A DNA stretch of 64,000 bases from a filamentous cyanobacterium ESFC-1 (GTDB lineage Bacteria; Cyanobacteriota; Cyanobacteriia; Cyanobacteriales; Spirulinaceae): NCBI GenBank assembly GCA_000380225.1, contig KB904821.1, positions 4,401,108-4,465,107 on the forward strand, in the 5' to 3' direction. Shown one piece after another: positions 38,357 through 62,908 of the stretch. The translations under genes and the position numbers were made by a program. The notes under the pieces are model-generated. The model saw only the letters and a list, made by a program, of their open reading frames with translations, was not told where the DNA came from and did no database searches. How positions within the stretch are numbered: position 1 is the stretch's first letter; every line of letters starts with the position of its first letter.

Positions 38357-39681
38357 CCAAAATGATGGGTCTCAAGCCTCGCCCTTACAGGGCGACTTTA
38401 TCTAATTCTGGGTATAATTGATACAAGTTAGAGCAGTATCAAATGTTCGTCTTAGAGTATAAAGTTAATCCGAAACCCCACCAAATAGAAGCGATTGAAG
38501 AAGCAATCCGTACCACTCAGTTTGTGCGGAACAAAACTTTGCGCTTCTGGATGGATAATCGGGGTGTCGGTAAAACGGAACTCTTTAGATACAATACTCA
38601 ACTCAGAAGCGAGTTTGAGTTTGTTCAAGATTTGAACTCTCATGCTTGTCAAACGGCGGTTGAACGAACACTTAGAGCAATTACCCGTTTTTACGATAAC
38701 TGCAAGAAACAGGTTAAAGGAAGTAAAGGATATCCACGGTTTAAGAAAAATACTCGCTCGGTTGAATACAAAACCAGTGGTTGGAAACTAGACCTCCAAA
38801 CCAAAAAGCACATCACCTTTACCGATAAAAAAGGGATAGGTCGTCTAAAGTTAGTTGGGTCTAGAGACATCCAATATTACCAACCCGAACAAATCAAACG
38901 AGTCAGGATTGTTAGAAAAGCGGATGGTTATTACGTCCAATTTGCTATTAAGTTAGACCCTAGAGATACCGTAAAACCTTTAACACCCACACAGCAAGCA
39001 GTCGGAATTGATGTAGGGTTAAAGTATTTTCTAGCCGACAGTCAAGGAAATATTGAACCCATCCCCCAGTTTTACCGTAAAACTGAAAAACAACTCAATC
39101 GGCTTAACCGCCAAAAATCTAAAAAGTTTAGAAAAGGAAAACCGCAATCCAATAACTATCGTAAAGCTAGAGTTCGATATGCCCGTAAACATTTAAGAGT
39201 AAGTCGGCAGCGAGAGGAGTTTGTCAAGAGAGTGGCACTCCGTTTAATCCAATCAAACGATTTGGTGGCCTACGAAGACTTGAATGTGAAAGGGATGGTT
39301 AGAAATCGATGTTTAGCGAAATCGATAAGTGATGCAGGGTGGTCATTATTTCGCCAATGGTTAGAGTATTTTGGGGATAAGTATGGAAAGGTAACGATAG
39401 CTGTACCACCCCATAACACCTCTCAAAACTGCTCTAATTGTGGCGAAAAGGTGCAGAAATCTCTATCAACTCGAACTCATGTTTGTCCGCATTGTGGATT
39501 TGTAGCCGATAGAGATGTAAATGCTGCATTAAACATTCTGCAATTGGGATTAAGTAGGGTGGGGCGCACCCAAACTCACGCTTCAGGAGAGATTTCCTCT
39601 TATCCAGTTGGAGAAATCCTGCTGTCTAACGAAGCCTCGATGAATGAAGAATCCCCTACCCTTTAGGGAGGGGAGCGTCAA
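38357..39681 (+). mobile_element. IS200/IS605-superfamily element, tnpB only
   Basis: Boundaries come from the interrupted DUF3368 gene: left flank ATTGAC, right end GGGAGCGTCAA. No target duplication, as expected for this superfamily. Left-end hairpin GCCTCGCCCTTACAGGGCGAC (38376-38396), right-end hairpin CCCTACCCTTTAGGGAGGGG (39654-39673). No tnpA, so transposition would need a transposase in trans. A one-base shift of both ends is possible. The left end aligns with that of the element at 61565. Confidence 0.85.
38443..39666 (+). CDS. tnpB: TnpB RNA-guided nuclease
   Basis: A 407-aa TnpB, full length. RuvC residues are all present: Asp190 in GIDVGLKYF, Glu278 in YEDLNVKG, Asp358 in RDVNAAL. 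The zinc finger has CSNCG and CPHCG. N-terminal start MFVLEYKVNPKP is normal for the family. TnpB proteins cut DNA using an RNA derived from the element's right end (overlapping the gene's 3' end). The predicted guide would start at the right junction, ACGAGTTCTCAAGTCATTCA; predicted TAM is TTGAC or TTGA. Confidence 0.9.
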   Translation: MFVLEYKVNPKPHQIEAIEEAIRTTQFVRNKTLRFWMDNRGVGKTELFRYNTQLRSEFEFVQDLNSHACQTAVERTLRAITRFYDNCKKQVKGSKGYPRFKKNTRSVEYKTSGWKLDLQTKKHITFTDKKGIGRLKLVGSRDIQYYQPEQIKRVRIVRKADGYYVQFAIKLDPRDTVKPLTPTQQAVGIDVGLKYFLADSQGNIEPIPQFYRKTEKQLNRLNRQKSKKFRKGKPQSNNYRKARVRYARKHLRVSRQREEFVKRVALRLIQSNDLVAYEDLNVKGMVRNRCLAKSISDAGWSLFRQWLEYFGDKYGKVTIAVPPHNTSQNCSNCGEKVQKSLSTRTHVCPHCGFVADRDVNAALNILQLGLSRVGRTQTHASGEISSYPVGEILLSNEASMNEESPTL

Positions 39682-51172: not shown

Positions 51173-51655
51173 TTAGTTGTTGTTATTTAAAGTGGCTTCG
51201 CGGGCTTCTAGCTCTTGCAAACGCAGCTCGATTTGTTCTTTTTCTTCTTTGATGCTGTTTTCTAGGTCTTGGATTTGTTCGCGGCGGGTTTCAATTTCGA
51301 GGTTACGGCGAGTCATGTCTTGACTTTGCAGAGTTAATTCTTGTCGCCATTGTTCGATGGCAGCTTGTTCCTCCCCTAATGATTCAGAAGGCGTTTCGGT
51401 CGAAAGCTTTTTCAGGAGAGATAGTACCCAACTCGTTGCGTCTTGTAAGCTCAAAATTTGCTGACTTTCATCGAGATCGACGAGGACTAAGCGGCCAGCA
51501 CTTAATAAGGCAGTGTTGGCCACTTTTTCGGCTTCAATCGCGAGGGAGTCACTGTCTTTGACTGACCAAACTTCGTCATCGGTTTGGGCAGCGAGGAGGT
51601 GGAGGATAATGCCGCTATTATCAGCATCTTGTTGCACTTGGGCCAGGTGTAGCAT
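51173..51655 (-). CDS. Coiled-coil conserved protein
   Basis: A 160-aa soluble protein. The N-terminal ~90 residues look globular (SGIILHLLAAQTDDEVWSV, AGRLVLVDLD), the C-terminal 70 form a continuous Glu/Gln-rich coiled coil (RREQIQDLENSIKEEKEQI). No family recognised. It converges with the PRK-like gene and precedes the ValRS pieces on the same strand in reading direction downstream. Confidence 0.7.
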   Translation of the reverse strand: MLHLAQVQQDADNSGIILHLLAAQTDDEVWSVKDSDSLAIEAEKVANTALLSAGRLVLVDLDESQQILSLQDATSWVLSLLKKLSTETPSESLGEEQAAIEQWRQELTLQSQDMTRRNLEIETRREQIQDLENSIKEEKEQIELRLQELEAREATLNNNN

Positions 51656-51752: not shown

Positions 51753-52265
51753 TTATTGAGGATTCAAAGCTTGGGCGCGATCGCGCAGAATCGCAACTTG
51801 TTTTTCGGCTTCAGCTAAAGCTTTCCGCGCACCTTGGACGACTTCTTTCGGTGCTTTATTCACAAAACCCTCATTACTCAGACGGCCTGTGAGGGATTTT
51901 ACCTCTCCTTCGACTTTGCTTAACTTTTTCTCTAGCTTGCCACGTAACGCTTCAATGTCAACTAAACCCGAAAGTAATAGTAATACTTGAACCGTTCCTT
52001 CTACGCCAGCAAAAGACTGTTTGTATTCTTGTTCGAGGGTCGGAACAATACTCAAAGATTCAACTTTAGCCAAATCTTCGATGTAATTGCGTCCTTTTTC
52101 TAAAATTTGACGCTCTGAGGCGTTTTCAGTTTGTAAAATAGCGGTGACTTGCGCGCCGGGTTTAATTTCGGCTTCAGCGCGAAGATTGCGTAAAACCCGC
52201 ATCACGCCAATAATTAACGCAAATTCCTTTTCAATTTCAGGATCAATTAAGGTTTGAATGGTCAT
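51753..52265 (-). CDS. Detached C-terminal region of valyl-tRNA synthetase
   Basis: A 170-aa ORF. The start IDPEIEKEFALIIGVMRVLRNLRAEAEIKPG is the usual late part of the ValRS anticodon-binding domain, followed by the junction and the C-terminal coiled-coil arm (KLSKVEGEVKSLTGRL, FVNKAPKEVVQGARKAL, KQVAILRDRAQAL) that grips the tRNA corner. In a normal ValRS these residues follow the anticodon-binding helices in one chain. Here they begin at their own ATG, in the same frame as valS but after a 75-nt gap with TAA and TGA stops. No good ribosome site precedes the ATG. Confidence 0.85.
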   Translation of the reverse strand: MTIQTLIDPEIEKEFALIIGVMRVLRNLRAEAEIKPGAQVTAILQTENASERQILEKGRNYIEDLAKVESLSIVPTLEQEYKQSFAGVEGTVQVLLLLSGLVDIEALRGKLEKKLSKVEGEVKSLTGRLSNEGFVNKAPKEVVQGARKALAEAEKQVAILRDRAQALNPQ

Positions 52266-52340
52266 AGTTTTGCGGCAGCATCAAATTAAGCAATAAATGA
52301 GTGATGAACGATCGGCATTCACCACTCCAAAACCGTTGAT

Positions 52341-55088
52341 TTATTCGCCTACGTTGGTCGAAGTCCGTTTCCCAAAGACTTGTTTTTTGAGACGATTGCT
52401 AATTTGTCCCAATTCTTCGCGATTTTGGGATTGCAGTAAATAACGCCACACAAACCAAATCACATAACCCAAACCCACTAACTGAAAAGTGGGAGAAAGT
52501 AACGGAATACTGTGAATCGCGTCTAGAGTGGCATTGAGTACCACCAAAGACACCAACGCCGCCAAAATTATGCCAAATACGGTGAGAGGACGGCGATACT
52601 CCCCAAAAAAGTTACTCACTTCATCGGGAAGTCGGTCTAAAAATCGCGCAATTTGATTAAACACTTGCGAAACTTGGGAAGATGCTTCTTCAGATGACGG
52701 CATCACCGCAACATCTCCAGAGGTTTCCGTGGGTTCAATTGCCGTTTCAGGGGGCGTAGGTTGTTCGGTATCAGACACAGGTTCAGTCTCCTTAGCAACG
52801 ACAGGTTCGGGATTTGGTGTTGATTCAGACTGTTCCGAAGCTTGTAAAATTTCGTCCACTTCTGGATAAGTTTGAACCGCCAAAAACTCCCCGGTTTTCT
52901 GGGTAAGATTGTGCCAGATTTCTTCGGTGATATGGGGCATAAACGGATGCAACAGCTTGAGAATGCCCTCTAGCACATAAGCCAGCGTTTGCTGGGCGAC
53001 TAAACGAGAGTTTGAAGTCGCATCTTGCCGCAGTCGGGGTTTGACAAGTTCAATATACCAGTCGCAGAAGTCCCCCCAAATAAATTCGTATAATCCTTTG
53101 GCTGCTTCTCCGAGGGCGTAAGTGCTGATATCTTCGCGGGTTTGGGCGACGGTTTGGTAAAAACGGGACAAAATCCAGCGATCGCAAAATTCCAGATTTT
53201 CCACATCAGGATAACCCAGTTGTTCGGGGGTTTTGCCGTCCAGGTTCATCAAGACAAACCGGGCTGCATTCCACATTTTATTAGCAAAGTTCCGGGAAGC
53301 TTCCACGGACTCCGATTCATCGGTTTTGCGGTTGTACTGTAAGCTAATATCTTGACCCGCCCCGGCAACTTCGCGGATTAAGGTATAGCGTAAGGCATCT
53401 GTACCGTATTTATTGATCAGTAAAAGCGGATCGATGCCATTTCCGGCAGATTTTGACATTTTCTTGCCATTTTCATCCCGCACCAAGCCGTGAATATACA
53501 CATCTTGGAAGGGCATTTCTTGGGTAAAATAACCCGCCATCATGGTCATGCGGGCGACCCAGAAAAAGATAATATCAAAACCCGTGACGAGGGTAGAAGT
53601 GGGATAATACTTCTGCAATTCCGGCGTATTTTCCGGCCATCCCATGGTCGAAAACGGCCACAACCCCGAAGAAAACCAAGTATCCAACACATCTGGATCG
53701 CGTTCGAGTTGGATATCTTCACCAAACTGGGCTTTGGCCTTTTCCCAAGCCTCGGTTTCATCGTGGGCGACAATAAAAGGCGTATCGTCGGTAATTTCCC
53801 CTTCCGTGGCGCTAACAACGTACCAAGCCGGAATTTGATGTCCCCACCACAATTGCCGGGAAATACACCAATCTTTGAGCCTTAATAGCCAATCTCGATA
53901 CACTTCTGACCATTTATCCGGAACAAAGGTAGGGGAGTTCGTCCCATTGAGACATTCTAAGGCTTTTGTTCCTAATGGCTCAATTTTGACAAACCATTGG
54001 GTGGACAAGAGGGGTTCGACGGGGACTTTGCCGCGATCGCTATAGGGAACCGAATGCTCGTAGTCCTCGGTTTTGAATAGTACCCCTTCAGCTTTTAAGC
54101 GCTCAACCACCCCTTTACGCGCCACGAAGCGGTCTTGTCCGGCAAATTCGCCTGCATTCTCATTCAACGTGCCGTCCTTGTTCATAATGTTGATAAACGG
54201 CAAATCGTGGCGTTTCCCCATCTCGAAGTCGTTGGGGTCGTGGGCCGGAGTAACTTTGACGCAACCCGTCCCAAATTCAGGATCGACCAATTCATCGGCA
54301 AAAATGGGAATCTCGCGATGCACAATCGGCAGGGTAACAGTTTTACCAATTAAATCTTTATAACGCTCATCATTGGGATTTACCGCGACTCCCGTATCTC
54401 CTAACATGGTTTCTGGGCGCGTTGTGGCGACTTCTACACACCCTTCCCCCTCGGTCAACGGGTAACGGAAGTACCATAAATGTCCCTGGACATCTACATT
54501 TTCGGCTTCAATATCTGAAACTGCCGATTGAGAGGCAGGACACCAATTCACCATGTAGTTGCCGCGATAAATCAAGCCCGCTTCGTAGAGATGGACAAAG
54601 GCTTCAATCACAGCTTTAGACAAGCCCTCATCGAGGGTAAAACGTTCTCGCGACCAATCCGCCGATAATCCTAGGCGTTTCAGTTGGTTGATGATTTTAC
54701 CACCGGATTCGGCTTTCCATTGCCAAGCCCGCTTTAAAAATTCCTCGCGGCCCACATCTTCGCGGGTTTTACCTTCGGCTTTGAGTTGCTTTTCGAGAAT
54801 GGTTTGAACCGCAATACTGGCGTGATCGGTTCCGGGCAAGCATAGGGTATTGTAGCCCCGCATCCGCTTGTAACGCACCAAAACGTCCATTAAGGTCGTG
54901 TTGAAGGCGTGACCCATGTGGAGACTGCCCGTAACATTCGGGGGTGGAATAACAATGCTGTAGGGCTGTCCTGCGGCGTTGGGGTCAGCTTGGAAAACGT
55001 CATGATCTCGCCAAGCGTTTTGCCACTTTTCTTCGGTGGCAAAGGGGTCGTATTGGGTTGCTAAAGGGGGAATGGTTGAAGCCGTCAT
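52341..55088 (-). CDS. valS: Valyl-tRNA synthetase body with C-terminal CAAD membrane domain
   Basis: A 915-aa class I synthetase body. HIGH motif in GSLHMGHAF (about residue 55), CP1 editing ([11 protein letters not shown]), KMSKS in [11 protein letters not shown] (about 544), anticodon-binding helices up to [13 protein letters not shown]. At about residue 750 it leaves the ValRS family and enters a Pro/Glu/Thr-rich linker, then a CAAD domain (about 800-905): amphipathic helix, two TM segments ([15 protein letters not shown] and [12 protein letters not shown]) and a basic end. CAAD is a known thylakoid anchor on some cyanobacterial aaRSs. The stop TAA at 52341 cuts off the C-terminal arm, which is a separate ORF at 51753-52265. 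Confidence 0.93.
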
Positions 55089-61564: not shown

Positions 61565-62908
61565 TACCGAAAGTTTTGGGTCTAAGGTTCCCCGTCCTTA
61601 AAGGACGGCTTTTTATTAATTGTGTTATGATTAGGGAACTAATTGGCATTTCATAGAATGCTTAACCTTTCGTATCAGTATAAACTGAAAGTAACGCCCC
61701 TACAAGCCGCCGTCATTGATGAGTGGCTTTCAGTTTGTCGTTCGGTTTATAACTATGCTTTGAAAGAAAGGAAAGATTGGGTCAACTCTCGGAAATGTCT
61801 AATAGACCGATGCTCAATTCGGTTAGAGTACATTATTACCGCCGATGCAAAACGCCCAACTTATGCCAGTCAGTGTAAATCCCTGACAGCAGCCAAGCGA
61901 ACCTACCCAAACCTTAAACTCCCTCAATCTCAAGTTCTGCAACAAACTCTAAAACAGTTAGAAGCAGCGTTTGTGAATATGTGGGATAGAGGGTTTGGGT
62001 TTCCTCGTTTTAAGAAACAGATGCGGTCTTTCGTATTCCCACAAGTCAAACCGGATGCGGTGAAGGGGAATACGATTGACCTCCCCAAAATTGGCAAGGT
62101 AGAGTTTCACAACTCCAGAAATATTCCCGATGGTTTCATCTGTAAACAGATACGAGTCATCAAGAAAGCCAGTGGCTACTATGTCTCGGTTTCAATTCAG
62201 TGTGACGTAGACGTTCCTGACGTTATGCCTCACGGCCACGCCATTGGGGTTGACTTAGGATTAAACAGCTTTATCGCCACCAGCGAGAACCAATTTGTCA
62301 AAGGACACAAGTTTTTCAAGGAATCTGAAGGCCAGCTTAAATCGCTGCAACGGAGACTGAAAAATAAGACCAAGGGTTCAAGACGGTGGTTGAGAGTAAA
62401 GCACCAAATTGGGCTACTCCACGAAAAGATACACAACTGTCGCAAAGATTTCTTCTTCAAACTGGCTCATCAACTGTGTGATGGAGTGGGCATGATATTC
62501 GCTGAAGATTTAAATCTCAAGGCGTTAGGACGGTCAGCTTTAAGGAAAGCTTGCCTTGATGCGGCTTGGGGTTCATTTCTGAATATCCTCCGTCACGTTT
62601 GCTGGAAAAGAGGCGTGTATTTTGCCAAGGTAAATGCTAATGGGACAAGTCAGATTTGTCCCCATTGCGGAACTAACTGTGGCAAAAAGTCTCTGTCTCA
62701 ACGAGTCCATTCATGCTCTAATTGCGGCTACACCACTGATAGAGATGTAGCCGCAGCCCAAGTGGTAAAAGAACGAGGATTAAGTGCGGTCGGGCAGGTC
62801 GTACCAACGCTCGTCGAGGGTAAAGATATCGGGGCTGGAGTTTATACTCCTGCTAGAATCTCCCTATGACGCGAGAATCCCCGCTCTTTTAGGACGGGGA
62901 GTTGTCAA
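61565..62908 (+). mobile_element. IS200/IS605-superfamily element, tnpB only, second copy
   Basis: Left end follows TTTGAT (61559-61564) and contains TTTTGGGTCTAAGG and the hairpin CCGTCCTTAAAGGACGG (61592-61608), aligning with the left end of the 38357 element (GATGGGTCTCAAGCC, CGCCCTTACAGGGCG). Right end: hairpin CCCCGCTC...GGACGGGG then GTTGTCAA, ending at about 62908. No tnpA, no target duplication. Boundaries are less certain than for the first copy because no gene is interrupted. Confidence 0.75.
61658..62869 (+). CDS. tnpB: TnpB RNA-guided nuclease, second copy
   Basis: A 403-aa TnpB from the ATG at 61658 (an in-frame TTG lies five codons earlier). RuvC residues: Asp199 in GVDLGLNSF, Glu283 in AEDLNLKALG, Asp363 in DRDVAAAQV. 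Zinc finger CPHCG and CSNCG. Full length, so likely active. It is not a recent copy of the TnpB at 38443: the two differ throughout. Predicted guide starts CGAAACCCACTTATATAATC at the right junction. Confidence 0.9.
   Translation: MLNLSYQYKLKVTPLQAAVIDEWLSVCRSVYNYALKERKDWVNSRKCLIDRCSIRLEYIITADAKRPTYASQCKSLTAAKRTYPNLKLPQSQVLQQTLKQLEAAFVNMWDRGFGFPRFKKQMRSFVFPQVKPDAVKGNTIDLPKIGKVEFHNSRNIPDGFICKQIRVIKKASGYYVSVSIQCDVDVPDVMPHGHAIGVDLGLNSFIATSENQFVKGHKFFKESEGQLKSLQRRLKNKTKGSRRWLRVKHQIGLLHEKIHNCRKDFFFKLAHQLCDGVGMIFAEDLNLKALGRSALRKACLDAAWGSFLNILRHVCWKRGVYFAKVNANGTSQICPHCGTNCGKKSLSQRVHSCSNCGYTTDRDVAAAQVVKERGLSAVGQVVPTLVEGKDIGAGVYTPARISL

Follow-up and report, generated by a model that had tools for sequence, protein, structure and literature searches.

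Is the valS gene of the filamentous cyanobacterium ESFC-1 truly encoded in two parts, and if so, can the parts still make one valyl-tRNA synthetase (ValRS)? We addressed this question for a 64,000-nucleotide stretch of its genome (hereafter the window), where the initial annotation had placed a ValRS in two pieces with a CAAD membrane anchor at the break, and both pieces in one frame across a gap holding TAA and TGA. Domain matches, open reading frames (ORFs) and two further split genomes bear out this description, including its coordinates and the gap at 52340-52266 (Table 1). The body matches the ValRS profile TIGR00422 with 1095 bits (cut-off 612.1) over residues 10-753, and Pfam assigns it a class I synthetase region (PF00133), an anticodon-binding domain (PF08264) and a CAAD domain (PF14159). 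Its HMGH (57-60) and KMSK (543-546) motifs occupy invariant columns across 15 aligned sequences, and the body thus has the catalytic, editing and anticodon-binding parts and the HIGH- and KMSKS-type motifs of a bacterial ValRS. The junction domain and coiled-coil arm expected on the same chain are instead encoded by an ORF of their own: residues 5-162 of the 170-aa product align to positions 701-858 of the 860 in NF004349, and residues 103-167 match the ValRS tRNA-binding arm family PF10458 (E 2.2e-20).

Table 1. Positions of the split valS locus within the window, and of partial arm copies found in other genomes.
Feature	Position	Strand	Description
valS body	52341..55088	(-)	915 aa; PF00133, PF08264, linker, PF14159, short tail, TAA
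CAAD domain (PF14159)	52371..52622	(-)	body residues 823-906; E 4.6e-30; 103.8 bits vs cut-off 30.7; genome position G000:C1:4453478-4453729
Gap between ORFs	52266..52340	(-)	75 nt, frame shared by both ORFs; in-frame TGA, TAA just before
Arm ORF	51753..52265	(-)	170 aa; C-terminal part of ValRS, with junction domain and coiled-coil tRNA-binding arm
Downstream gene	51173..51655	(-)	160 aa, like N-terminus of HmpF; 82.5 bits, below model cut-off 200
Partial arm copies	L246 3954-6883 (G313); L248 1959-3175 (G249); L247 2293-2496 (G304)		also in G325 and G359

A Pro/Glu/Thr linker (about residues 750-815) leads from the body to the CAAD, which lies between the anticodon-binding domain and the arm, at the same site as in unsplit relatives. 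In the window the TAA follows nine residues past the CAAD match, and the CAAD is terminal rather than internal to a continuing chain. The frame common to both ORFs and one other frame are stopped in the gap, and the third is open there and closed inside the CAAD and in the arm. None of the frames, therefore, runs through both ORFs. The gap contains a 12-pair hairpin with a T-rich tail (52327-52299), which is possibly an attenuator or terminator; its folding has a z-score of -2.08, and 5 of 200 shuffles fold equally well. The region holds 6 terminator-like hairpins against a mean of 5.8 in shuffles, which is no excess, and folds of the junctions in the two other split genomes contain no comparable hairpin. 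A simple scan with the sigma-70 consensus revealed no promoter-like site between the body and arm genes, and in neither the window nor one of those two genomes (G004) was a clear Shine-Dalgarno sequence read ahead of the start codon of the arm. Searched against its own genome, the gap gave no clear case of a repeat, the next best match being 30 bases (E 0.09). A small ORF of this kind could be mistaken by annotators for a fragment or pseudogene. The gene downstream of the arm has no Pfam family. Two other window ORFs, 38443-39666 and 61643-62869, we take to be TnpB-type (IS200/IS605 OrfB) with a C-terminal zinc ribbon.

A second intact valS had been named at the outset as an observation that would overturn a split enzyme, and we looked for one in the window's own genome (G000; 3 contigs, 5,632,035 bases, listed as 100% complete with 0.22% contamination). 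The body query has a single full-length match, itself, and the seven other matches (27-40% identity) seem to be segments of related class I synthetases, together with one free Curt1-like ORF. Neither a further valS nor a further arm was found in the 5.63-Mb genome, the arm query matching only itself. Two genes thus cover one synthetase in a genome that has no one-chain copy, as in other split aminoacyl-tRNA synthetases.

The arrangement recurs among relatives. Across 13 genomes of the window's GTDB family, the arm was matched in 12, the exception (G011) being 82% complete. Three genomes from three genera (G000, G004 and G008) are split at the body/arm junction, with arm frames of 175, 182 and 171 codons, respectively, from stop to stop; in the other nine a single frame of 1070-1189 codons encodes body, CAAD and arm. 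PF10458 is matched by the arm of G004 as well. All three junctions differ. Against the 75-nt gap of the window, the G004 body ends in KEEVIGDR-stop and is followed by 96 nt to the arm ATG (93 from a start one codon earlier), in the same frame and with two stops, and the G008 body ends in ...TSDLKKGE-stop, its TGA lying inside an ATGA, a four-base overlap of stop and start. The arms of the split genomes begin MTIQTLIDP, MTATLIDP and MTTQTLIDP. Chance origin of the split is excluded, because two other genomes share the arrangement with different gap sequences. Relatives with an identical gap apart from the stops would likewise have spoken against fission; unsplit family members have instead a quite different linker at the junction, often Ser/Thr/Pro-rich, for example ...TSPTAPVFPQTLIDPKLEQDF. 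The translated gap is unlike these linkers, and its length, sequence and frame are not conserved among the split genomes. The G008 split depends on a single base within six consecutive A, where one extra A would join the frames, and an assembly error or slippage is therefore possible there; G000 and G004 are free of this weakness.

Across the order, the arm was matched in 369 of 388 genomes, and we examined the rows of 332 of these; the remaining 37 all belong to family f33 and have two arm matches each, and in the examined f33 genomes a single frame of about 1000 codons contains both. No other break behind a CAAD was found among the 332. Besides the three split genomes, eleven have their main arm match in a frame shorter than 700 codons, and each was rejected as a further split. 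The frame change falls inside the body in G183, G022, G342, G204 and G370; the arm shares with body or CAAD one frame that reaches the contig end in G212, G206, G354, G319 and G345; and CAAD and arm are in one frame in G041. G333, G236, G363 and G376, with frames of 713-773, and G348, whose arm is spread over two contigs, lie outside this set.

Two further kinds of arm sequence appeared in these searches. In four genomes of genus g112 (family f2) and in G359 (g144), valS is adjoined by additional, incomplete copies of the ValRS coiled coil (query about 95-167). G313 has five extra arm matches, some partial copies carry stops, and they look like 3'-end duplications. In addition, 17 phage records matched the arm, and three of the 5 listed are very short and unannotated (3.5-4.5 kb), are labelled as Listeria or Enterococcus phage and have the ValRS arm at about 33-35% identity; our guess is that these three are bacterial DNA.

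Trees of other proteins point to a single origin of the split. In a three-gene tree of LeuRS, a GlgC-like protein and LeuA (2219 columns, 18 genomes; G007 without LeuA and with a partial LeuRS), the three split genomes form one clade (UFBoot 99), and the single-gene trees of the GlgC-like gene and LeuA also unite them, with local support of 0.92 each. The LeuRS tree alone places G000 with the unsplit G005/G009. In the ValRS gene tree the three are not a clade, and forcing them together is not rejected (AU p 0.246). An HmpF-N-terminus-like gene lies close behind the arm on the same strand in the window and at 15 of 16 other valS loci; the arm has therefore not moved, and the break happened in place. 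Fission of a CAAD-bearing ValRS into a body ending at the CAAD and a free arm, as first proposed, is upheld in three genera, with one valS in the window's genome. A separate peculiarity of G004 is its LeuRS (L155; frame 944 codons), which is about 60 residues longer than the query between positions 594 and 601, with no CAAD match reported there.

The separate arm appears to evolve under about the same constraint as an arm within one chain, as distance ratios, invariant columns and pN/pS all resemble those of unsplit arms. The ratio of arm to body distance is 2.03-2.40 in the three split pairs, versus a median of 1.93 (1.22-2.67) in 66 pairs of the 12 unsplit enzymes compared, one of which (G095) is without CAAD. 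Each split arm retains 47 of 49 columns invariant in the 12 unsplit enzymes, a test of little power, because in a leave-one-out control unsplit arms retain 49 of 49-54 invariant columns and their 0-5 departures span the 2 of the split arms. The split bodies retain 380, 381 and 384 of 388 invariant columns (leave-one-out control, 388 of 388-401). Split arms have pN/pS values of 0.29-0.37 at pS values of 0.74-0.77, near saturation; the median for unsplit arms is 0.34 (range 0.22-0.47) over 78 pairs from 13 genomes, a set that omits G009 as a near twin of G005. Both parts of the split enzyme are under purifying selection.

Predicted alone from 17 aligned sequences, the arm folds into a well-ordered model (mean pLDDT 88.8). 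Its nearest solved structure is Thermus thermophilus ValRS with tRNA-Val (1gax; Foldseek E 1.1e-8), followed by the C-terminal domain of Pseudomonas aeruginosa ValRS (4xkz); the corresponding sequence matches have E values of 1.1e-5 and 2.9e-6. When body, gap and arm were modelled as one read-through chain, the result had a pLDDT of 62.3 and a pTM of 0.46, and this poor pLDDT makes it unusable for describing a docking interface. In the 1gax structure, the coiled coil of the arm reportedly extends to the elbow of the tRNA, with the junction domain packed close to the anticodon-binding domain.

We consider it likely that the locus encodes a natural two-gene ValRS, which arose by one ancestral fission behind the CAAD and in which a membrane-anchored body is completed by an arm docking in trans. 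The ancestor of the three genera would already have possessed a valS with a CAAD (Curt1-like) hairpin between body and arm. Once the gene was broken just behind the CAAD, a stop would have terminated the body at the tail of the CAAD, and the arm would have taken as its new start an ATG situated a few codons ahead of its conserved L-I-D-P. The CAAD presumably tethers the body to thylakoids, and the arm protein, comprising the junction domain and coiled coil, would be translated from the next cistron. This protein most likely docks non-covalently at the site it occupies in the one-chain enzyme and holds the tRNA elbow, and it is probably needed for full valylation. That the ORFs lie close together or overlap suggests that body and arm share one mRNA, with coupled translation in G008. 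In CAAD-containing enzymes the chain would exit the body, form the membrane hairpin and return by a linker to an arm held mostly by docking. The break may have been tolerable because the CAAD and flexible linkers had already made the body-arm connection a loose tether. According to PMC4893482, CAAD directs the ValRS of Anabaena to thylakoids, and deleting it changes the catalytic parameters little; if the arm is indeed held by docking, cutting the returning linker should therefore cost little as well. The fuller picture has about an even chance of being right: a heteromeric ValRS whose thylakoid-anchored catalytic subunit and diffusible arm meet at the membrane, with the bound arm setting valine charging, and whose body-arm connection had first been loosened by insertion of the hairpin.

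That order of events, CAAD insertion before fission, was also the one initially suggested, and it is better supported than its converse, in which a curt1 copy with its own stop entered an unanchored valS, anchoring and splitting it at once, and unsplit relatives gained their CAAD independently or re-fused. The converse differs from fission behind a pre-existing CAAD in origin alone, so that the confidence we place in the two overlaps; we regard it as unlikely while giving it more weight than any other alternative. In its favor, the split bodies stop 2-9 residues past the CAAD glycine, near the 1-6 residues of the 11 free Curt1 proteins listed, and the best CAAD tree places the split CAADs, which cluster together (UFBoot 92), with Curt1 and the f15 ValRS CAADs, apart from the unsplit family (bipartition support 80). 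Tests on the same CAAD alignment lean the other way: a topology with a single insertion for all family members withstands the AU test (p 0.41), while one that nests the split CAADs directly with Curt1 is weakly rejected (p 0.037), although 88 columns are too few to settle the order. The body-side junction motif YP-x-VDE-[IVL]-L also argues for a shared insertion, being common to the three split and seven unsplit family members and absent from three f15 outgroups among those listed, though it may be older than any insertion. Each split genome has just two CAAD matches, a free Curt1 and the ValRS. In the ten other family members (including G011) a second ORF, 686-810 codons long, encodes a CAAD (L228-L237); that of G009 (L229) is an ArgRS by Pfam, with the CAAD ahead of the DALR domain, and the remaining nine were assessed from their N-termini.

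The remaining alternatives concern what the two ORFs do now. The arm could be made and selected as a separate RNA-binding protein while the CAAD-anchored body valylates armless. Some ValRS lineages have no coiled-coil arm, the arm here is free-standing, and partial free-standing coiled-coil copies occur beside valS in some other cyanobacteria. A new role should, however, alter the pattern of conservation and position, and the arm retains the evolutionary rate and invariant residues of one-chain arms, including those of the junction domain, and adjoins valS in all three split genomes. We accordingly rate a separate role as improbable, and the same retained rate and residues disfavor the earlier suggestion that the arm is no longer essential. 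Still less probable is that some one-chain ValRS continues to be made by stop readthrough, frameshifting or transcript slippage. The two ORFs do share a frame in the window and in G004, and the G008 arm frame could be reached by a slip on the six A; yet both of the former junctions have two in-frame stops, and neither a conserved gap nor a linker-like translation marks the intervening DNA as coding. Least credible of all is an assembly error or recent pseudogene. Only the homopolymer at the G008 junction speaks for it, against three different junctions in three genomes, two in-frame stops in two of them, the lack of a second valS in the window's genome and purifying selection. On the strength of the junction diversity, the single valS and the conserved arm, we ruled out an error or decaying gene.

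To our knowledge, core translation enzymes are rarely broken in free-living bacteria. The split valS is a natural domain dissection of ValRS, kept over the divergence of three genera, and it makes testable both a coiled-coil arm working in trans and the idea that insertion of a membrane hairpin can prepare an enzyme for fission. The literature searched, with most subscription journals outside its scope, contained no split ValRS and no CAAD enzyme that ends at its CAAD with the rest supplied in trans, in agreement with the initial annotation, which knew of none. The closest known counterpart of the window enzyme is the ValRS-C of Anabaena and other cyanobacteria, which likewise has a Curt1-like CAAD hairpin between the anticodon-binding domain and the arm (PMC4893482, available part); we equate the CAAD site in the window with the 'position 750' of that study. 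In ValRS-C the CAAD is inserted at internal positions, whereas in the window the chain ends at its CAAD and a separate gene encodes the arm. The main text of PMC4893482 contains no mention of 'split', 'fission', 'two genes' or 'stop codon'.

Synthetases in two genes have precedents in other enzymes. The LeuRS of Aquifex aeolicus is a class Ia synthetase in two genes whose products form one enzyme. The window ValRS resembles this two-subunit LeuRS, known here from a reference title in PMC9976931, in being encoded by two genes, and differs from it in the place of the break, in its membrane anchor and in being another enzyme. The AlaRS of Nanoarchaeum equitans, according to the available part of PMC3655853, is likewise encoded by two genes in one lineage and unsplit in a relative, Nst1. 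Unlike the window ValRS, it is a class II enzyme of a reduced symbiont with multiple split genes, and its pieces lie far apart, judging by gene numbers. Split synthetases and CAAD-carrying ValRS are thus already known, and what appears to be new here, as we found none earlier, is a ValRS split behind its CAAD.
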